Of a stretch of DNA of 64,000 nucleotides, positions 34,624 through 45,080 are shown in pieces. The stretch comes from Saccharospirillaceae bacterium (GTDB lineage Bacteria > Pseudomonadota > Gammaproteobacteria > Pseudomonadales > Oceanobacteraceae): assembly GCA_021208685.1 (NCBI GenBank), contig JAJOJJ010000027.1, positions 114,802-178,801 on the forward strand. Direction: 5' to 3'. Below the pieces are notes generated by a model. That model was not told the origin of the DNA and ran no database searches. It saw only the letters and a program-made list of their open reading frames with translations. The translations under genes and the position numbers were made by a program. Every line of letters starts with the position of its first letter. Position 1 is the stretch's first letter.

Positions 34624-35061
34624 TCAGAACTGCGGATTAACCAGAACCTGACTGGTCGTGGAATTAGCAATAAAACAATGCTGATGCGCTTTATCATGCA
34701 TCGCCAGCACCGCAGCCTCATCCGGTTGCTTATCACCGCCGAATACCGCTTTCGGATTCAGGCGGATGCAGGACACCCAGAACTTGCCATCGTCGCGCTG
34801 TGCCATTTCTGCCACCGCTGAATCGTCATACGACAGCACCTGCAGACGCTTTTTAGCCGCCAAGGCGAGAAAAGTCTGCATGTGACAGCTGGCCATTGCG
34901 GCAGCCAGCATCTGTTCCGGATCAGCACCAAAATCATTTCCGGCACCGCCTGCAGCGAGACTGACCTGCGGTAAAAACTGAATATTGTGGCGGCGTTCAA
35001 ACCCTTCATGGGAAAACTCACCCTGTTTTTCCCAACGAATATTTATGCGGTGTTCCGACAC
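34624..35061 (-). CDS. OsmC-family protein
   Basis: OsmC/Ohr proteins reduce organic peroxides through paired cysteines. The 145-residue product has HRINIRWEKQGEFSHEGFERRHNIQFLPQVSLAAGG, DPEQMLAAAMASCHMQTFLALAAKKRLQVLSYDDSAVAEM and AHQHCFIANSTTSQVLVNPQF. The first cysteine (ASCHMQTF) and a later one (HQHCFIANS) are at the usual OsmC positions. The start is GTG at 35061: GGAG lies eight bases before it, and it begins one base after the cytochrome gene stop. The ORF-track start would overlap that gene. Its neighbours suggest oxidative or sulfur-stress defence; the true substrate is unknown. Confidence 0.85.
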   Translation of the reverse strand: MSEHRINIRWEKQGEFSHEGFERRHNIQFLPQVSLAAGGAGNDFGADPEQMLAAAMASCHMQTFLALAAKKRLQVLSYDDSAVAEMAQRDDGKFWVSCIRLNPKAVFGGDKQPDEAAVLAMHDKAHQHCFIANSTTSQVLVNPQF

Positions 35062-35062
35062 G

Positions 35063-35620
35063 TTATTGCTCCAGTGTTTTGCGTAATGTGAAAGCGCCGC
35101 GCAGATCACCGACGTTAAATCCGCGCGCCTGATCCGCCGGGTATAACTCATCCAGTTTGGCCGTTACCGAGGGGGCCAGTTGCGAGCCATGACAGGTCAG
35201 ACACAGCGGCGCCGTCGGAATGGCTTTCATATAGCGAAATTCACCATCGGCAATGGTGGTGACTTCAATACCCATAGGATCTTCACCGGCCTGCAGTCGC
35301 TGTGCAAACTCGGCCAGCGTCTGTTGTTCCCAGGCGTCGGCAACATTATCCGGGTTACGGATTTTTGTTGAAGTACGCGCCAGCTGCCAGCCATTCTGAC
35401 TCAGACCAGCGGCAATGGCCGGTGCTTCGGTGTTGCACAAGTGAATGGCCGCATCCGGTCCGCTCGACTGAATGCCCTGTTTGAGCGTTTTCTGCAATGC
35501 CTGAGCAAAGGCTTTGGTCTGGGCCCGCGCGTCCTGTGTCAGTTGCGCGTCGTCTGCCAGCGCCGGCGGCGTCAGACTGAGCATGGCGGCCAGAAACACG
35601 CTGCGTTTTAACATTCCCAT
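35063..35620 (-). CDS. Periplasmic Tll0287-like (DUF3365) heme protein with one CxxCH
   Basis: The 185-residue precursor has a signal peptide (MLKRSVFLAAMLSLTPPALA) and a helical domain with DAAIHLCNTEAPAIAAGLSQNGWQLARTSTKIRNPDNVADAWEQQTLAEFAQRL. Then come DGEFRYMKAIPTAPLCLTCHGSQLAPSVTAKLDELYPADQARGFNVGDLRGAFTL. CLTCH is a c-type heme attachment site. R-N-P-x-N-x-x-D and the closing L-R-G-A block match the Tll0287-like family of heme-binding sensor or redox proteins. ATG at 35620 has GAGGAG eight bases upstream. It lies between rhodanese and OsmC genes in a tight run. Electron partner unknown. Confidence 0.82.
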   Translation of the reverse strand: MGMLKRSVFLAAMLSLTPPALADDAQLTQDARAQTKAFAQALQKTLKQGIQSSGPDAAIHLCNTEAPAIAAGLSQNGWQLARTSTKIRNPDNVADAWEQQTLAEFAQRLQAGEDPMGIEVTTIADGEFRYMKAIPTAPLCLTCHGSQLAPSVTAKLDELYPADQARGFNVGDLRGAFTLRKTLEQ

Positions 35621-35632
35621 ACCCGTCACTCC

Positions 35633-36013
35633 TCAGCGATACACGCTTGGGTCAACTTCCACTTTATGCACGGTACCGCTCCAGCCATCGAAGCCTCCCA
35701 CCAGCATTTTGACCTGCTCAAACCCCATACGCTTCAGCGTATGAGCTGCCAGCGTGCTGCGTCCGCCATTTTTGCAGTAGAGCAGAATATCAGCCTGCGG
35801 ATTGGTCAATGCCGGGTGATCCCCCACACGGAATTCGAGCACGCCGCGCGGTACGTTAACCGCACCGGGTAAGTGCCCCATGTCGAATTCCGCCGGTTCG
35901 CGCACATCCAGAACCACGGCACCCTGCGCCAGCAGCGCTTCAGCCTCAGCGGCATCCACCGGATTGACGGCGGCACGCGCTTCGGCCAATAAATCATCTT
36001 TGCTTAAAGCCAT
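35633..36013 (-). CDS. Rhodanese-like sulfurtransferase
   Basis: The 126-residue single-domain protein has AQGAVVLDVREPAEFDMGHLPGAVNVPRGVLEFRV (CH2A motif) and the active-site loop LLYCKNGGRSTLAAHTLKRMGF with the catalytic cysteine. A C-terminal block (VKMLVGGFDGWSG) completes the fold. Rhodaneses move sulfane sulfur between donors and acceptors. The ATG at 36013 has GAGGAG upstream; the ORF-track start at 36208 adds 65 unrelated residues. It follows ybgE by 59 bases on the same strand and precedes the Tll0287-like gene by 12, so it may be co-transcribed with the cytochrome bd genes. Confidence 0.88.
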   Translation of the reverse strand: MALSKDDLLAEARAAVNPVDAAEAEALLAQGAVVLDVREPAEFDMGHLPGAVNVPRGVLEFRVGDHPALTNPQADILLYCKNGGRSTLAAHTLKRMGFEQVKMLVGGFDGWSGTVHKVEVDPSVYR

Positions 36014-36072: not shown

Positions 36073-36369
36073 TCAGCCAATCCACCACCAGCCGCAGACC
36101 AGCATCAGCGGCCAGCCAATATACGGACTGAACAGCAATCGCCAGATGGTCATTTCCGGGACATAGCCCACACCATGCACAAATCCGGCGCTGATTCCCC
36201 ATAAACACAGAGACAGCAGACCGTGATCAATGCTCATGGTGTCACTGGCGACAACATGCGGCACCGCCAGCAATAATCCCGATAAGCCCAGCGCCGCCAG
36301 TAATGACAGCGCCCGCGCCCACCCCGCATACAGCGGGCCGTAAGCCTGATAATCCACCGGTGTGCTCAT
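36073..36369 (-). CDS. ybgE: Cytochrome bd operon-associated protein YbgE
   Basis: The 98-residue membrane protein has three hydrophobic segments (SLLAALGLSGLLLAVPHVVA, LLSLCLWGISAGFVHGVGYV, LLFSPYIGWPLMLVCGWWWIG). The C-terminal G-F-V-H-G-V-G-Y-x-P...P-Y-I-G-W-P-L pattern is characteristic of YbgE, encoded downstream of cydAB and cydX in many proteobacteria. Its exact role in the bd oxidase is not settled. It starts three bases after the cydX stop. Confidence 0.88.
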   Translation of the reverse strand: MSTPVDYQAYGPLYAGWARALSLLAALGLSGLLLAVPHVVASDTMSIDHGLLSLCLWGISAGFVHGVGYVPEMTIWRLLFSPYIGWPLMLVCGWWWIG

Positions 36370-36372
36370 GAC

Positions 36373-36489
36373 TTACTCTTTAAGGTCGGCGTCGCGGTCA
36401 AAGTTTTCGTTCATTTCCAGCCACATGGCGTTAATCAGACCAAAAGAACAGGCCAGCAACACCCCTAAAATCCAGGCGAAATACCACAT
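36373..36489 (-). CDS. cydX: Cytochrome bd-I small subunit CydX
   Basis: CydX is a single-helix subunit that stabilises CydAB heme insertion and activity. The 38-residue product MWYFAWILGVLLACSFGLINAMWLEMNENFD has the family start (M-W-Y-F-A-W-I-L-G) and the acidic end. The ATG at 36489 has AAAGGAG just upstream; the ORF-track start at 36561 adds a meaningless N-terminus inside the cydB end. Confidence 0.93.
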   Translation of the reverse strand: MWYFAWILGVLLACSFGLINAMWLEMNENFDRDADLKE

Positions 36490-36532: not shown

Positions 36533-37669
36533 TCAGTAAGTGCTGTATTTATTGTCTTCAATAAAGGCGGTGGTTAAACGTCCGCGCATTTTGTAATAAC
36601 CCCAGGTGGTATACAGCAGAATGATGGGTACAAATATCATCGCCACCCAGAACATAATGCCCAGCGTTTTATGACTGGAGACCACATCCCAGACGGTCAG
36701 GCTGTACGCCGGATTCAGACTCGACGGCATAATAAACGGGAACAAACTGAAACCCGCGGTACAGATAATACCGGTCACCGCCAGTGAGCTGCCGATAAAG
36801 GCCAGTGCACCCCGATTGGCGGCCGACATCAGCACCGTCAGCAACAGCCCGGCAAAGGCGATCACCGGTGCGGCAATCATGACCGGGTAGCGCGAATAAT
36901 TTTCCAGCCAGCCGCCCGCTGCGACTTCCACGGTTTTATCCAGCGGCGTCATGGCTGCTGCACCATTAATGCTGCTGGTGATCACCAGGCCATCAATACC
37001 GGCGTAAATCCACAGACCCGCCACGGCAAACAGCACAGCCACAACGATGGCCAGCAGAATCGATATTTTCCGCGCCCGTTCATGCAGGTCACCATCGGTA
37101 CGCATCTGCAGATAGGTTGCACCATGCATGGCCAGCATGCCCAGACTCACCAGTCCGGCCACCAATGCAAAGGGATTCAGCAGCGCCCAGAACGAACCTG
37201 TGTAGTTGGAGCGCATAAATTCATCGAGGGTAAACGGCACACCAAGGAATAAATTACCGAAGGCAACACCAAAGACTAACGCCGGTACCGCGCCACCAAT
37301 GGTCAGGCCCCAGTCCCAGGCATTACGCCAGCGCGGGTCTTCCATTTTTGAACGGTATTCAAAGCCGACTGGGCGGAAAAACATGGCGAACAGCACCAGC
37401 AGCAATGCCCAGTAAAAGCCGGAAAAAGCCACCGCATACACCACCGGCCAGGCGGCAAAAATGGCACCGCCAGCGGTAATAAACCATACCTGATTACCAT
37501 CCCAGTGCGGGCCGACGGTGTTCAGCATCACGCGGCGCTCACTGTCGGTTTTACCGATAACGCGCAGCAAAGCGCCGACTCCCATGTCGAAACCATCGGT
37601 TACCGCAAAACCGATCAGCAGGACGCCGATCAATACCCACCAGATTAATTTAAGGCTTTCGTAATCCAT
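36533..37669 (-). CDS. cydB: Cytochrome bd ubiquinol oxidase subunit II CydB
   Basis: CydB partners CydA in the bd terminal oxidase, which reduces oxygen with ubiquinol. The 378-residue protein starts MDYESLKLIWWVLIGVLLIGFAVTDGFDMGVGALL and contains RRVMLNTVGPHWDGNQVWFITAGGAIFAAWPVVYAVAFSGFYWALLLVLF. Eight or nine membrane helices follow, ending MRGRLTTAFIEDNKYSTY. The length and blocks (GPHWDGNQVWF) are normal for the CydB subfamily close to E. coli. It begins nine bases after the cydA stop. Confidence 0.96.
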   Translation of the reverse strand: MDYESLKLIWWVLIGVLLIGFAVTDGFDMGVGALLRVIGKTDSERRVMLNTVGPHWDGNQVWFITAGGAIFAAWPVVYAVAFSGFYWALLLVLFAMFFRPVGFEYRSKMEDPRWRNAWDWGLTIGGAVPALVFGVAFGNLFLGVPFTLDEFMRSNYTGSFWALLNPFALVAGLVSLGMLAMHGATYLQMRTDGDLHERARKISILLAIVVAVLFAVAGLWIYAGIDGLVITSSINGAAAMTPLDKTVEVAAGGWLENYSRYPVMIAAPVIAFAGLLLTVLMSAANRGALAFIGSSLAVTGIICTAGFSLFPFIMPSSLNPAYSLTVWDVVSSHKTLGIMFWVAMIFVPIILLYTTWGYYKMRGRLTTAFIEDNKYSTY

Positions 37670-37678
37670 ATTCTGCTC

Positions 37679-39283
37679 CTATGCCTGATCTTTTATGGCT
37701 TGCTGAGGCTGAGCAACCGCCGCGCCAGCACTGTGAGTCTGTTCAAAATGATAGCGGCCGGTATGCAGACTGGATGGCCCCAGGCGTGAAAAGCGGATCA
37801 TCAGATACATTTCGACGATTAACAGCAGCGTATAAAAACCAATAAAACCAGCCAGACTCATGTACAGATCGTCTACCGAACGGGTTGAGACGGATAAATG
37901 CGTTGGCAACACCTCAGCAATCGACCACGGCTGACGACCAAATTCAGCCACAAACCAACCGACTTCACTGGCAATCCAAGGAGCGGGCAATGCAATGATT
38001 AACGCTTTTAATAACCAGGTTTTGGTTTCGACGCTGTGCTGCGTACTGTAGTAGAACGACAATGAAATAAGAATCAGCATCAAAAAGCCAAGGCCAACCA
38101 TAATACGGAATGCCCAGAACATCGGTGCGACTTTCGGGATGGTATCCTGCGCCGCCTGCTTAATGTGTTCTTCAGTCGCGTCCACAACATTATTGGTGTA
38201 TTTCTTTAACAACAGGCCATAACCAAGGTCATCTTTTAATGCATCAAAAGCAGCGATGGTCGGATCGGATTTATCGCCGCGACGCATTTTTTCCAACAAT
38301 GCATAAGCTTCAATACCACGACGGATACGCAGCTCATGCTCCTGCAGCAAATCTTTAATACCCACCACTTCCTCATCCAGAGAACGGGTAGCAATCAACC
38401 CCAGAGCGCCCGGAATTTTAACCGCATAGTCGGTTTCCATGGTTTCCTGATTCGGCAGGCCAATCAGGGTAAAATCTGCCGGTGGTTCCTGGGTATGCCA
38501 TTCAGCCTCAATGGCAGCCAGCTTGGTTTTCTGCACATCACCAATTTCATAACCGGATTCATCCCCCAGAATAATCACGCTGATAATCGAGGCAAAACCG
38601 AAGCTTGCAGCAATGGCAAATGAGCGGCGGGCAAACGGCAAATCACGCTTTTTCAACATGTAATACGCAGAAATCGCCAGCACAAACATGGCACCGGTAA
38701 CGTAACCGGCTGAAACCGTATGAACGAATTTAACCTGCGCAACGGGGTTAAAAATAACCTCTGAAAAATTGGTCATTTCCATGCGCATGGTTTCGTAATT
38801 AAATTCTGCCCCCACCGGATTCTGCATCCAGCCATTGGCAATCAGAATCCACAGTGCCGACATATTAGAGCCAATCGCCACCAGCCAGGTCACCATTAAA
38901 TGCTGAACACGGGTCAGGCGATCCCAGCCGAAAAAGAACAGGCCAATAAACGTTGATTCCAGAAAGAACGCCATCAGCCCTTCAATGGCCAGCGGAGCAC
39001 CAAAAATATCACCCACATAATGCGAGTAGTAAGCCCAGTTCGTTCCGAACTGGAACTCCATGGTCAGACCGGTGGTAACCCCCAGAGCGAAGTTAATACC
39101 GAACAGTTTGCCCCAGAATTTCACCATATCCTGATAGACCTGCTTGCCGGTCATGACATAGGCAGATTCCATAATCGCCAGAATAAACGACAATCCCAGC
39201 GTTAATGGTACAAACAAAAAGTGATACATCGCGGTGATGGCAAATTGCAGCCGCGATAAATCGACAAGACTCTCACTGATCAT
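37679..39283 (-). CDS. cydA: Cytochrome bd ubiquinol oxidase subunit I CydA
   Basis: CydA carries hemes b558, b595 and d and the quinol-oxidising Q-loop. The 534-residue protein begins [40 protein letters not shown] and includes a heme-ligand region with [47 protein letters not shown] long Q-loop follows (about residues 255-390), so this is the long-Q-loop E. coli-type bd-I class. It ends with [23 protein letters not shown]. It starts four bases inside the cydP end. Bd oxidases have very high oxygen affinity and resist sulfide and nitric oxide (family knowledge). Confidence 0.97.
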
Positions 39284-39477
39284 TGCTGATCCTCCGATTG
39301 CGAGGGGGTAATAGTTGATAAACCAAATTGTTGCGAAACAGCATCCTGCGGATTGGTCATATCCACAGGTTCAGAAAACCAGATCACTTTGATGGTAAAG
39401 ACCAGCATCAGCTTGATCAGCAGAACCACCGTCAGCTCACGCACCAGGGGAATCGAAAACACGGATTTTTTTGCCAT
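39280..39477 (-). CDS. cydP: Cytochrome oxidase putative small subunit CydP
   Basis: The 65-residue protein [44 protein letters not shown] has one membrane helix flanked by charged residues. It resembles the small CydP protein found immediately upstream of cydAB in many gammaproteobacteria (P-L-V-R-E-L-x-x-V-L-x-I-K-L...W-F-S-x-P). ATG at 39477 has GAGGGT upstream; the ORF-track start at 39519 adds 14 residues without support. Its TGA overlaps the cydA ATG. It is the first gene after the sigma-54 promoter at 39652-39667. Confidence 0.82.
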
Positions 39478-39651
39478 AAACACCCTCGGTATGAGCCATT
39501 CATTTGCTGCGGGGGACACCTGATCAAACCCTTCCCGTCAACAAGACCAGAGCATAACAGTATCAACATACAGCAATATTCAGATGACAGCGCTGCGATG
39601 CTTTGTCGCAGGGGGGTTCCGGATCATTTAAAGCCCTGCGGCACATGACAC

Positions 39652-39667
39652 AGCAAAGAGCAGGCCA
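39652..39667 (-). promoter_or_regulatory. Sigma-54 (-24/-12) promoter for the cyd operon
   Basis: On the minus strand the sequence TGGCCTGCTCTTTGCT fits the sigma-54 consensus TGGCACGNNNNTTGCW at all but two of the defined positions. The GG and GC elements are at the exact 10-base spacing. The start site would be about 12 bases beyond, giving a leader of roughly 160 bases before cydP. It lies directly beside a gene for a sigma-54 activator. Seen in sequence; activity is inferred. Confidence 0.75.
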
Positions 39668-39748
39668 ACCCGTATGAGGCGAATAAGGGGCAGAGAACAC
39701 ACATCAATGCGCGGCCTGCACTTTACAATCAGGCGACTGACTGCCAGA

Positions 39749-39769
39749 TTTGACAGATATCATGTCAAA
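39749..39769. promoter_or_regulatory. 21-bp dyad, candidate binding site of the sigma-54 activator
   Basis: TTTGACAGATATCATGTCAAA has perfect 7-base arms (TTTGACA/TGTCAAA) around a 7-base spacer. Its centre lies about 105 bases upstream of the -12 element of the cyd promoter, a normal enhancer distance. It ends 11 bases before the ATG of the divergent activator gene, so binding could also repress the activator's own expression. Sequence seen; role inferred. Confidence 0.6.
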
Positions 39770-39780
39770 GGCGTCAGACC

Positions 39781-41145
39781 ATGTTCAGCAATCCGCATTA
39801 TCGTTCACTGCCTGCCATTGCCTCGCTGCTCGACGCGATTGCCGCACCGGCTGTACTGCTCAACCCGGACTATGAAATCTGCGCCGCCAACGAAGCCTAC
39901 CGCCACACCTTTGCCAGCAACGACAACGTGGTGGGCCGCCACTGTTACGAGGTGTCGCATGGCTATAAGGTGCCCTGCGATCAGGCCGGGGAAACCTGCC
40001 CTCTGCGCCAGTGTTTTGAAAGCGGACAACGTCAGCGCATTCTGCACATTCACAACACCGCCCGTGGGCGCGAGCATGTTGATGTCGAGATAAGCCCGAT
40101 ACGCGACGAGACCGGCGAGATCCGGTTTTTCGTCGAAATCATGCATCCGGTGCAACATGGAGACTGCCCGTTTGAGCAGCAAATGGTCGGCTACAGCCCG
40201 GCCTATACACACATGCTGGAATTACTCAGCCGCGCAGCACCCAGTGATATCAGCGTCCTGTTGCTGGGAGAATCGGGTACCGGTAAAGAACTGGCTGCAC
40301 AGTATCTGCACGGTCACAGCCCGCGGCACAACAGCCCTTTTGTCACCGTGGAATGCTCAGGACTGACGGAAAGTCTGTTTGAAAGTGAGCTGTTCGGTCA
40401 TGAAAAAGGCGCCTTTACCGGCGCCACCCACCGCAAACCGGGACTGGTCGAAGCCGCGCGGGGCGGTACACTGTTTCTCGATGAAATCGGCGATATCCCC
40501 ATGCCAATGCAGGTTAAGCTGTTGCGCCTGATTGAATCCGGCAGTTACCGTCCGGTGGGCAGCATTACCCCAAAACAGGCCGATTTCCGCCTGATCTGCG
40601 CCACCCACCGGCAACTTGGCGATATGGTCGCAGCCGGTACTTTCCGTCAGGATCTGTACTACCGCATCAGCCCTTTTCCGGTTGTATTACCGTCCCTGCG
40701 CGAACGGCCGGAAGACATCATCCCGCTGGCAACTCACCTGTTGCAGCAACTCAGCCAGCACCGCCTGCTGCAACTGTCGGAAGAAACCTGCGACTGGCTG
40801 ATACAACAGGACTTTCCCGGCAACATCCGCGAACTGCGCAACCGCATTGAACGCGCCATCCTGTTATGTGATGGTTCACAGATTGAGCCGGAACACCTGC
40901 GCATGGATCTGCACCAGTTCAGTCAGCATCAGGAATCACCACCAACGCCAGCCAACCAGCAGACGCTACCGGACATTATGCCGCTGGATCAGCTCGAACA
41001 TGCCTACCTGACCCAGCTTGCAGCCCGGTTTGCAGGCGACAATGCCAATCTGGCCAATAAACTCGGCATCAGCGAACGCACGCTCTACCGCAAACTGAAA
41101 CAGGCGCGCAGCGGTATCCGCACGCCCCCGGGCGCGCAGGAATAG
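39781..41145 (+). CDS. Sigma-54-dependent activator with Cys-rich PAS domain, divergent to cyd
   Basis: The 454-residue protein has a PAS domain (residues about 10-125), an AAA+ domain and a C-terminal Fis-type helix-turn-helix. The PAS contains [28 protein letters not shown] with Cys55, 66, 73 and 78, which could bind a redox cofactor or metal. The AAA+ domain has Walker A GESGTGKE (163-170), the sigma-54 contact GAFTGA (210-215) and Walker B LFLDEIGD. The HTH is [21 protein letters not shown]. There is no receiver domain, so control is probably through the PAS. Its natural target is the cydPABX operon, given the sigma-54 promoter and dyad in the shared intergenic region. The precise signal is unknown. 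Confidence 0.9.
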
Positions 41146-41357: not shown

Positions 41358-44300
41358 ATGGCTGTCGAACTGAGAGAACACCCCCGATTTTCCACCTACG
41401 TTAACGCCCGTTTGTTATTGTCCGACGGCACTGCGCTGGATTGCCAGGTTCTGGATTATTCACAAAGCGGTATGCATCTGCTCTGGCCTCACGGCAAACC
41501 GCAGAATACGGCGGGCATCCTGACACTGCAGCTGACACTGGATCAGCAACCGACTGAGATCCGGGTGGAGTGGGTATTCTGCAATGAACAGCATGCCGGA
41601 GTTCGCCTGCATCAGCCGGATGATCGTCTGTTTCTGCGCCTGCAGGAGTTTAACCAGAGTCATCGCAACATAAAAAAGATCAACCCGGAACAACGCCAGC
41701 GATACCTTGAGCTCTTTCGCCAGGAGGCCGGCTCACTGATTGAACGGTTGCTCAAACTCTGGCTGCCGGAGTTTCTCGAAGGCACTTTCAGCAAAGCCAA
41801 TATGGCGCGCAATACGGCCGAGCAACAACAGTGGCTGCGACTGGAAAAACAGTCCAAAGAAAAAGCGGCGGCCATGCATCAGCGCTTCAGCCAGACCCTC
41901 CAACGCCAGCTCGAACGGTGGTTTGCGGGTGAACCGGAATACATTGCCGAACATCAGCACGCCAGCGGCGATATGCGGTTATCCCTGATACAGCAGGCGG
42001 AGTTTGAAGATTGGCTGCTGGCCAAAGTAACCTCGTCGCACCTGCAATCACGACTGGCGCACATGACCTTTGAGCTGCGCCAGCTGCTCGATACCCTGTC
42101 CGACGCCAGCATTGAAAACGGCTTCAACCCGATTGGTCCCGGCACCATCACCGAAGCTTTCCGTGACAGCTTGGAAAAACTGCAACTGCCGCAGGAAGCG
42201 AGGGCACTGGCGTTTGAAACCTTCGAGCAGATCGCGGGCGGCAACCTGCAAACCACCTATCAGAATCTGGTCAGACAGATCGATATTCCGCTCACATTCC
42301 GTTACCGCAAACCCGCAGCAGAACCGCAATCCAGCCGCCGGAACGACAGCGACGCAGCGACCCCTCTGCCCGCCGGCAGCGACTCGGCAACAAACACGGA
42401 ATACAAGACCAACGCGGCCGCCGGCAACACTCAACCGGCAAGCGCCCAACCGGCACCGGACAGTGAGCAGCCCCTGCAGAATTTTCAGCGTCATCAGGCA
42501 GAAGCCCGTCAGGCCTATGCCAACATCCAGAATCTGTTGCGGCTGCGCTATCAGCGTTTTGAACAGCCAGGCCTTTCCCAGGAAACCCTGCCCGTCGCGG
42601 CTCCGGAGCTGATCAGTGATGTCGTCAGTCACGTTGCCCAACAGCAGAGCCTGGCTCAGGGGCATGTCCGTGAACAGGTAGAAAAAGTTCTGGCCGAAAA
42701 AGACGTGAGTCTGCCAGCAGAATCCCGTGACGCCATCGACACACTGGAGCACGTCACCCAGCACCTGCTGTCCAGTGATCAGGTTGCCGGATTTATCAAG
42801 CCGTTTATTGAGCGCCTGGGGTGGCCATTACTGCAATTAATGCTGAAAGACGCCAGCCTGCTGTTCAATCCCGATCATCCCGGTCGTCAGGTGCTGAATC
42901 AGCTCGCCAAACTGGGGCAACTGACCACCAGCGGCGAAGCTCAGGTAGCCAGCCGCCTGCAGGGCATGATTGATCCGGTCGTGCAGAACATCAGCCATGA
43001 TGAGAACACTCTGGACGAATTACTCGAAAGCCTGCAGGGGCTGGTTACAGGTGCCGAACGCAAAGCCCGGCAGAACGCCGAGCGCGTGGCTCAGGCGGCT
43101 GAAGGTGAGCACAAACTGCAGAAAGTCCGCCGCCAGATCGAACATCTGGTCGGCAAAGACAGCTCTGACAGAACCCTGCCGTCCTGCGTGGTTGAATGGC
43201 TGCAGCAGGGCTGGCAACAAATGCTGTGCCTGCTGTTGCTGCGCGAAGGCCCGGACAGCAAACGCTTCCAGGGGGCCGTCAAACTCTACCGTCAGGTTCT
43301 GGCACTGTTCCGGCCAGAAAACAGTGGCCGGCGTGAGTTATTAAACCGTTTTCAGCCGATGATGGACCTTGCCCGCGCAGAACTGGATCGCCTTAACGGC
43401 AGCCTGCCGGAACATCAGCGCTGGCATGACGAAATCATAGCGGCAGCAGAAATCCACCTGAACCAGGGTGAAATCCGCGAAGCCATTGATCTGCCAACCT
43501 TTGTCGCCAGACCCGCCGAAGTCGTACCGGAAGGCCGTGGTATGCGCCGCGCCATGAACTTACAGGTCGGAGACTGGCTGTTACTGGTTGAACAGGATCA
43601 GTCCGCCTCGATTGTCTGGATCGCCCAGGATGCCTCCAAATTCGCCTGCGTTAATCACAGCGGCATGAAGGTTATCGACTTCACCCTCGCTGAACTGGCG
43701 CGGGCGTTTGACGAAGGCCGGGTTAAACGCATGTACGAACAGGATGAATCCGCCGTCGATCAGGGCGTCGACAAGCTGGTACAGCAGATCTATCGCGACC
43801 TGTCAGAGCAGGCCAATATCGATGCTCTGACCGGACTGACGAACCGCCAGCACTTCCTGCGCCTGCTGCAGGAACGCTTTCAGGCCAGTCTGCGTAACCC
43901 GGCACCCTGCACTCTCGCCATGATTGATATCGATCAGTTCAAACTGATCAACAAGAACTACGGCGTAGACGGCGGCGATGCCTGCCTGCAGGCCGTCGCA
44001 ACGATGCTTGAAGACCAGTGTCCGGATGCCTTGTGTGCACGAATCGGCAGCAATGAATTCGCCGTCCTGATGAATCATGCCGATATGGAACAGGCTGAAG
44101 CCCGCGCCAAGCTCCTGAAAAAAACGGTAGAAGAAACCGCCATCAGCAGCGCAGATGACCGTTTTCACATCCACATCAGTGTCGGCCTCGCGGCCATGAA
44201 CGCCGATATAACGGATGCCTCCGACCTGATAGAACAGGCCGAATCCGCCTGCCTGATTGCCAAAGAAAAAGGCGGTTCGCGCATCGTTCAGTACGAGTTC

Positions 44301-45080
44301 GATGACGCCGGACGTCTGCGCCATGATGAATTTATGGCCTGGGGGAATAAGCTCAATCAGGCTCTGGCCAACAACCAGTTGCAGGTATTGTGCGTACCGA
44401 TCACCGCGATTCAGGAGCGGCATAAAGGCACCCGCCAGTATGAAATCCTCATCAGCATTCGGGATAAGCATGGCGCTCAGATACCGCCACTGGAATATCT
44501 GCAGGCTGCCGAAAACTACAATCGTATGTATATGCTCGACCGCTGGACGCTGGAGCAACTGGTACAGTGGCTGCGTGACCACCCCGATACGGCGCAGAGC
44601 ATCAGCCGCTTTGTGCTGCGCCTGTCGGGTCACGCCATCAACGATGAAAGCCTGCTGGCCTATATTTTTGAACAGGCGCGCGAAAAAGACGTTCCGGTGA
44701 AGAAACTCTGTTTTGAGCTGAACGAGACATCCGCCATCCGCAATCTGGAAGATGCCGCCGATTTTATGCATGAAATGCGCAGTCTCGGCTGCCAGTTTGT
44801 GCTGTCGGATTTCGGTACCGGGCAATCATCGTTCGAATACCTGAAAGCCCTGCCAGTCGACTACGTGAAGATCGACCACAGCTTTATTGACGGGCTTCAT
44901 ACCAGCTCTGCCGACTACGCGCTGGTCAAGTCCATTCAGGAAATCACCCACTTCATGGCCAAGAAAACCATCGCCGAATACAGCGCGAATAATAATGCCT
45001 GGGAAATACTGCGTTCCATTGGGATCGACTTTGTCGTCGGCGCGCCGGACGAATACCAGCCGCTGGAAAAACTTGGCTGA
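41358..45080 (+). CDS. PilZ-DUF1631-degenerate GGDEF-EAL protein, 1240 aa
   Basis: An N-terminal PilZ domain has both c-di-GMP motifs: R6-E-H-P-R10 (RxxxR) and DYSQSGMHL (D/NxSxxG). A long helical region (about residues 110-800) has DUF1631-like blocks including QLARQIDIPLTF-type, VAPELISDVVSHVAQQQSL and VDKLVQQIYRDLSEQANIDALTGLTNRQHF. The GGDEF domain has RIGSNEFAVLM instead of GGDEF (about 894), and the EAL domain has QYEILISI instead of EAL (about 1027) but retains SDFGTGQSSFEYLKALPVDYVKIDHSFI. Both catalytic sites look dead. The protein is therefore more likely a c-di-GMP receptor or scaffold, binding through PilZ and possibly the EAL fold. No signal or membrane helix is seen. Output unknown. 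Confidence 0.82.
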   Translation: MAVELREHPRFSTYVNARLLLSDGTALDCQVLDYSQSGMHLLWPHGKPQNTAGILTLQLTLDQQPTEIRVEWVFCNEQHAGVRLHQPDDRLFLRLQEFNQSHRNIKKINPEQRQRYLELFRQEAGSLIERLLKLWLPEFLEGTFSKANMARNTAEQQQWLRLEKQSKEKAAAMHQRFSQTLQRQLERWFAGEPEYIAEHQHASGDMRLSLIQQAEFEDWLLAKVTSSHLQSRLAHMTFELRQLLDTLSDASIENGFNPIGPGTITEAFRDSLEKLQLPQEARALAFETFEQIAGGNLQTTYQNLVRQIDIPLTFRYRKPAAEPQSSRRNDSDAATPLPAGSDSATNTEYKTNAAAGNTQPASAQPAPDSEQPLQNFQRHQAEARQAYANIQNLLRLRYQRFEQPGLSQETLPVAAPELISDVVSHVAQQQSLAQGHVREQVEKVLAEKDVSLPAESRDAIDTLEHVTQHLLSSDQVAGFIKPFIERLGWPLLQLMLKDASLLFNPDHPGRQVLNQLAKLGQLTTSGEAQVASRLQGMIDPVVQNISHDENTLDELLESLQGLVTGAERKARQNAERVAQAAEGEHKLQKVRRQIEHLVGKDSSDRTLPSCVVEWLQQGWQQMLCLLLLREGPDSKRFQGAVKLYRQVLALFRPENSGRRELLNRFQPMMDLARAELDRLNGSLPEHQRWHDEIIAAAEIHLNQGEIREAIDLPTFVARPAEVVPEGRGMRRAMNLQVGDWLLLVEQDQSASIVWIAQDASKFACVNHSGMKVIDFTLAELARAFDEGRVKRMYEQDESAVDQGVDKLVQQIYRDLSEQANIDALTGLTNRQHFLRLLQERFQASLRNPAPCTLAMIDIDQFKLINKNYGVDGGDACLQAVATMLEDQCPDALCARIGSNEFAVLMNHADMEQAEARAKLLKKTVEETAISSADDRFHIHISVGLAAMNADITDASDLIEQAESACLIAKEKGGSRIVQYEFDDAGRLRHDEFMAWGNKLNQALANNQLQVLCVPITAIQERHKGTRQYEILISIRDKHGAQIPPLEYLQAAENYNRMYMLDRWTLEQLVQWLRDHPDTAQSISRFVLRLSGHAINDESLLAYIFEQAREKDVPVKKLCFELNETSAIRNLEDAADFMHEMRSLGCQFVLSDFGTGQSSFEYLKALPVDYVKIDHSFIDGLHTSSADYALVKSIQEITHFMAKKTIAEYSANNNAWEILRSIGIDFVVGAPDEYQPLEKLG

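Follow-up and report, generated by a model that had tools for sequence, protein, structure and literature searches.

A divergent FisR-type sigma-54 activator as the probable regulator of a cytochrome bd operon in a Saccharospirillaceae bacterium

The cytochrome bd operon in the analysed window, the whole stretch of 64,000 nt of contig JAJOJJ010000027.1 (Saccharospirillaceae bacterium, GCA_021208685.1), is preceded by a sigma-54 -24/-12 element and lies divergent from a gene encoding an intact sigma-54 activator. The arrangement is best read as a FisR-type activator which probably responds to sulfane sulfur and would start transcription of the cyd operon from the sigma-54 promoter, a sequence-based model which, taken as a whole, we hold to be correct with a probability of roughly 0.77. 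When sulfide is present, the sulfide:quinone oxidoreductase (SQR) of the organism would make sulfane sulfur (polysulfide, persulfides), which would modify the cysteines C55, C66 and C73 in the PAS domain of the activator. Positioned on two TGNCA-N4-TGNCA sites, the activator would then hydrolyse ATP and remodel the sigma-54 RNA polymerase at 39652-39667, and transcription would proceed from near 39641 through cydP-cydA-cydB-cydX-ybgE-rhodanese-Tll0287-osmC. The cell would have a sulfide-resistant oxidase ready under conditions that would poison its haem-copper oxidases; cytochrome bd is reported to sustain sulfide-resistant respiration (PMC4815019).

The cyd locus and its sigma-54 promoter

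Positions 39478-39780 form the exact intergenic gap between cydP (ATG at 39477, minus strand) and the activator gene (ATG at 39781, plus strand). The features of the locus are as follows:

39781..41145, plus strand: FisR-type sigma-54 activator, 454 aa (Pfam, motifs, cysteine positions, tree)
39763..39776, minus strand: distal putative activator site TGACGCCTTTGACA (two-site layout recurs in the genus and family)
39742..39755, minus strand: proximal putative activator site TGTCAAATCTGGCA (motif class found across the FisR clade; similar site upstream of the organism's own sqr)
39652..39667, minus strand: sigma-54 -24/-12 element TGGCCTGCTCTTTGCT upstream of cydP, predicted start near 39641 (pattern, scoring, conservation)
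39593..39611, minus strand: palindrome CTGCGACAAAGCATCGCAG resembling a RegA/PrrA/RoxR box and possibly a second input (found as well where relatives lack the activator)
39280..39477, minus strand: cydP, small putative oxidase subunit and first gene of the operon (NCBIfam NF045611, above cut-off)
37679..39283, minus strand: cydA, cytochrome bd subunit I (PF01654)
36533..37669, minus strand: cydB, cytochrome bd subunit II (PF02322, TIGR00203)
36373..36489, minus strand: cydX, small subunit (TIGR02106; start picked by ribosome-binding site)
36073..36369, minus strand: ybgE-like cyd operon protein (PF09600)
35633..36013, minus strand: rhodanese-domain protein, sulfurtransferase-like, probable operon member (PF00581; stays beside cyd in the genus)
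35063..35629, minus strand: Tll0287-like protein with one CxxCH haem motif (PF11845)
34624..35061, minus strand: OsmC-family protein, probable last gene of the operon (PF02566; start abuts or overlaps the preceding gene)

Downstream of the activator gene and on the same strand, a large protein with a GGDEF-EAL region is encoded at 41358-45080. Proteins of the Tll0287-like CxxCH type recur beside FisR-type genes, with or without cyd (L002, L183, L186, L189, L192 and L204).

The sequence-only reading had placed a -24/-12 element with exact spacing on the cyd strand, and this is borne out by TGGCCTGCTCTTTGCT (39667-39652), in which GG and GC stand in register with 10 bases between them, within the promoter pattern TGGCACG-N4-TTGCW. 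This element shares the top score among 88 matches in the 64 kb window and is distinguished from order-1 shuffles of the local sequence at p = 0.005. The 4.0 Mb genome contains 20 matches to the pattern TGGCNYRNNNNTTGCT, compared to eight for a reversed-pattern control, and from the genome-wide rate approximately 0.0015 matches would be expected by chance on both strands of this gap. A strict sigma-70 consensus scan across 39478-39780 gave no match. RpoN is encoded in the genome.

Homologues of the activator were drawn from the family plus a class-wide sample. In all nine genomes of the genus the activator is divergent from cydA and the element is retained as TGGCCTGCTCYTTGCT or a near variant (9/9), although the length of the gap varies and four of the nine carry an extra gene of approximately 175-184 codons between the promoter and cydA. 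A cydA of this kind is found in 28/45 genomes of the family. Every cydA locus adjoining the activator carries a site that scores at least 13.5 bits and is no more than 900 bp away (16/16), while the cydA loci of genomes in which no activator was found have none in non-coding DNA (0/12); eleven of the latter show nothing above 7.5 bits and the match at the twelfth (L270) was set aside since, judged by eye on the sequence, it sits inside an upstream coding frame. The difference corresponds to p ~3e-8 when the loci are treated as independent, although they are not. Among the 25 cyd-linked loci of the FisR clade, a site occurs on the divergent strand in 20/25, compared to 1/25 on the strand of the activator, with 1.2 expected. 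Four Alteromonadales-type loci have weaker elements, with TTGT or CTGC at -12.

The motif is short and equal-scoring matches occur inside genes elsewhere in the window, from which it could be argued that the -24/-12 match arose by chance. This is very improbable given the expected count in the gap, the strand-specific enrichment, the presence of the element in every member of the genus and its absence where the activator is absent. This conservation and joint presence and absence lend strong support to the proposed control of cyd by sigma-54 through the divergent activator, and the check proposed with it, retention of the element in relatives that keep the activator-cyd pair, came out in its favour. 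For the promoter and its connection with the divergent activator, the support is as good as can be had from sequence alone.

The activator and its putative binding sites

The divergent gene had been read as encoding a sigma-54 activator with GAFTGA and an intact AAA+ core, with which the Pfam and motif analyses agree. Its domains are PAS_4, Sigma54_activat, an AAA lid and HTH_8 (Fis-type HTH), and the Walker A, GAFTGA, Walker B, arginine finger and FRQDLYYRI motifs expected of an enhancer-binding protein are all intact. While the earlier interpretation of the locus is supported, it missed the FisR type of this activator, and a conserved second palindrome hints at inputs besides sigma-54. The architecture of sensor, AAA+ and Fis-type HTH domains is that of FisR. 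The PAS domain carries the cysteines C55, C66 and C73 (C-x10-C-x6-C), a pattern found in 86/86 sequences examined; most of them also have a serine-histidine lying between these cysteines. FisR of Cupriavidus pinatubonensis JMP134 is alike in domain architecture and divergent layout, and its sensing cysteines C53, C64 and C71 share this spacing, a correspondence that serves as a lead. It differs in its divergent target, which is here the cytochrome bd operon, with sqr and pdo elsewhere in the genome.

In the 49-row tree set, the window protein groups with L161 (50.6 % identity), a Cupriavidus FisR-type gene beside pdo-sqr. FisR is, in addition, expected to adjoin and control pdo-sqr, whereas the neighbour here is cyd, and sqr and pdo are encoded on contigs other than this one. 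The term FisR-type is used rather than FisR because the adjacent target is cyd and not pdo-sqr. No NCBIfam model names the activator, with all equivalog scores far below cut-off, and the best matches among solved PAS relatives are weak and unspecific, indicating no ligand. Classification of the activator as FisR-type is well supported and, on sequence grounds, it is a probable sulfane-sulfur sensor. Published work describes FisR as an activator of sulfide-oxidation genes transcribed with sigma-54, with its ATPase activity raised and a tetrasulfide crosslink formed (PMC12170894; PMC8469610).

The two upstream sites, TGACGCCTTTGACA and TGTCAAATCTGGCA, are imperfect palindromes of the form TGNCA-N4-TGNCA and lie 21 bp, or two helical turns, apart. 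They are located near the start of the activator gene, about 90-110 bp upstream of -24, with the proximal site beginning at 88 bp, and the same two-site arrangement recurs in the majority of genus and family members. The motif was first noticed in the genus, so that the genus loci provide no independent test of it, whereas distant loci do. Across the FisR clade it is present at 20/25 cyd-linked loci (0.09 expected in shuffles) and 10/17 sulfide-linked loci (0.08 expected). The TGNCA-N4-TGNCA sites are the presumed binding sites of the activator.

Partner genes in the FisR clade and the unlinked sqr

The divergent partners of the 49 FisR-clade rows comprise cydA (25), SQR and/or persulfide dioxygenase (PDO) genes (17), while neither was seen for the remaining seven. 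The relative with 50.6 % identity in C. metallidurans CH34 is located beside pdo-sqr, the regulator in annotated Pseudoalteromonas DNA is divergent from cydP-cydAB, and in the Oxalobacteraceae genome L001 the activator gene stands between a divergent pdo-sqr and a downstream cydP-cydAB. The identity of these sulfide-oxidation partners was compared with solved structures. Matches were to metallo-beta-lactamase-family structures and ETHE1 for the PDO of L001, to human SQR for the SQR of L001 and to a sulfide-quinone reductase for the L181-type SQR. The tree requires several changes between cyd and sulfide-oxidation partners, gains not being distinguishable from losses; for the cyd label, well-supported branches make at least three of them necessary.

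A shortened PDO-like protein is encoded between the sigma-54 promoter and cydP/cydA in L085, L086, L088, L089, L167 and L169-L171, and at the same position in L174, L175, L177 and L179. It aligns with persulfide dioxygenase and lacks the THVHADH metal-binding motif; those tested gave no Pfam match, and the gene is missing from the window organism. A second subfamily (most of L207-L243) has the same three cysteines and occurs mostly without a divergent sigma-54 site or a recognised sulfide partner, with some members linked to SQR, DsrE-like and TusA-like genes. We give even odds to the proposal that FisR-type regulators in Gammaproteobacteria repeatedly gained cytochrome bd as a target, by which sulfane sulfur would directly programme the switch to sulfide-resistant respiration, with some lineages adding to the same transcript the shortened PDO-like protein, which is devoid of the metal-binding motif and might serve to bind or sense persulfide.

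A human-type SQR query found no sqr in the genome of the window organism, but a bacterial-type query then found one (L294; 65 % identity to that query) on another contig. Upstream of this gene, TGGCCTCTGTTTTGCT is located at -57 and CGACAAATCTGTCA a further 132 bp upstream, the motif match of the latter needing one relaxed base. The same promoter arrangement is present in a second genus member (L295) and a related one in a third (L293), with the sigma-54 element 57-67 bp upstream of sqr across the three. This site was found separately from the pattern scan. Among the 20 sigma-54 pattern sites genome-wide, the upstream motif was present no more than 300 bp away at the cyd site alone, the regulon scan having covered pattern matches and selected loci. 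The unlinked sqr probably belongs to the regulon of the activator. The organism's own pdo (L115) was considered and rejected as a regulon member, its upstream region having neither a sigma-54 element nor an activator site. It adjoins a divergent ArsR-type gene, like the BigR arrangement, and the locus recalls the two-system arrangement of FisR and BigR in A. baumannii (PMC7315123).

These neighbourhoods bear on the nature of the signal. With sigma-54 and the activator controlling cyd as described, the PAS cysteines could instead sense redox state, NO, O2, a metal or Fe-S, as PAS domains bind many ligands and the solved PAS matches favour none. Cytochrome bd is useful also under NO, cyanide and low oxygen, and the serine-histidine amid the cysteines of most sequences could form a metal site. 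We consider such a signal decidedly unlikely, since relatives with the same cysteines adjoin sqr and pdo across the class and a similar promoter precedes the organism's own sqr. Sulfane sulfur is, on this sequence evidence, most likely the signal.

A possible second input and comparison with known systems

The palindrome CTGCGACAAAGCATCGCAG lies between the sigma-54 site and cydP and fits published degenerate RegA/RegR motifs in part only. Relatives that lack the activator have similar palindromes upstream of cyd, e.g. TGCGACATCATGTCGCA in L260, and those resembling TGCGAC-N5 were observed upstream of cyd in L251, L253, L260, L263, L265, L269 and L270. In relatives of the L258/L259 type the palindrome is located inside the shortened PDO-like reading frame. 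The genome of the window organism encodes, next to a sensor kinase, a RegA/PrrA-like regulator that scores 163.6 bits against a cut-off of 250 bits.

In Acidithiobacillus ferrooxidans, a sigma-54 promoter of cyd, TGGCACAGAGATTGCT, was mapped by 5'RACE in sulfur-grown cells, the sigma-54 regulator gene AFE_0957 lies upstream, and the cyd region also has a second, sigma-70 promoter and is bound by RegA (PMC5506826). The cydAB genes of B. pseudomallei are activated by RegA (PMC8191878). It could be argued from these systems, the regulator gene in the window organism and the TGCGAC-N5-GTCGCA-like palindromes of relatives with and without the activator that cyd is transcribed mainly from another promoter, under a RegA/RoxR-type regulator acting at 39593-39611, with a minor role for the sigma-54 promoter. 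This appears rather unlikely, as the strict scan of the gap gave no sigma-70 consensus and, throughout the genus and family, loci that retain the activator also retain the -24/-12 element. The two inputs can also coexist, and a second, redox-linked input to cyd is likely from the sequence, alongside the sigma-54 control by the FisR-type activator.

The At. ferrooxidans locus resembles the present one in having a sigma-54 promoter and a sigma-54 regulator gene beside the operon, and differs in that AFE_0957 is not characterised as a sulfur sensor in PMC5506826. The earlier suggestion that sigma-54 control would be an unusual design for a respiratory oxidase needs correction in that it has this precedent. 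DNA resembling the At. ferrooxidans cyd promoter was sought in the class sample with no match, in a search that was uninformative. In A. baumannii, cydAB is sulfide-induced and FisR, divergent from the sulfide-oxidation operon with its predicted sigma-54 promoter, has been shown to drive pdo1-sqr; the differences are that no link between FisR and cyd is shown there and that this FisR lacks the sensor cysteines (PMC7315123). Dedicated regulators of a cytochrome bd that gives resistance to sulfide are also reported for Alishewanella (CydE, GbsR-type; PMC6096048) and Chromobacterium (CioR, MarR-type; PMC11837568), both belonging to other families and neither being a sigma-54 activator. The cydA2B2 genes of C. 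necator were rejected as a precedent, as the published study ascribes their gain in expression to a newly arisen sigma-70 promoter, and CO tolerance did not result from rpoN mutations (PMC10164946).

One mapped example of sigma-54 control of cyd, that of At. ferrooxidans, is already known. The pairing of FisR-type activator and cyd, and its breadth, were not found described, in a literature search that revealed no control link from FisR to cyd but was weak, with subscription journals mostly outside its scope. Five papers name both FisR and cytochrome bd; among them, an experimental study of both reports that sulfide induces cydAB and does not attribute this to FisR (PMC7315123). What is new is the combination, its parts being known.

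The FisR-type identity of the activator gives the sigma-54 design a physiological meaning. Cytochrome bd allows respiration to continue in sulfide, and sulfide induces it in several bacteria. If the proposed model is true, a dedicated FisR-type activator at the cyd promoter would connect the sensing of sulfur directly with the choice of oxidase, an arrangement seen in several gammaproteobacterial families, and would suggest a reason for the sigma-54 promoter at the cyd operon of At. ferrooxidans.
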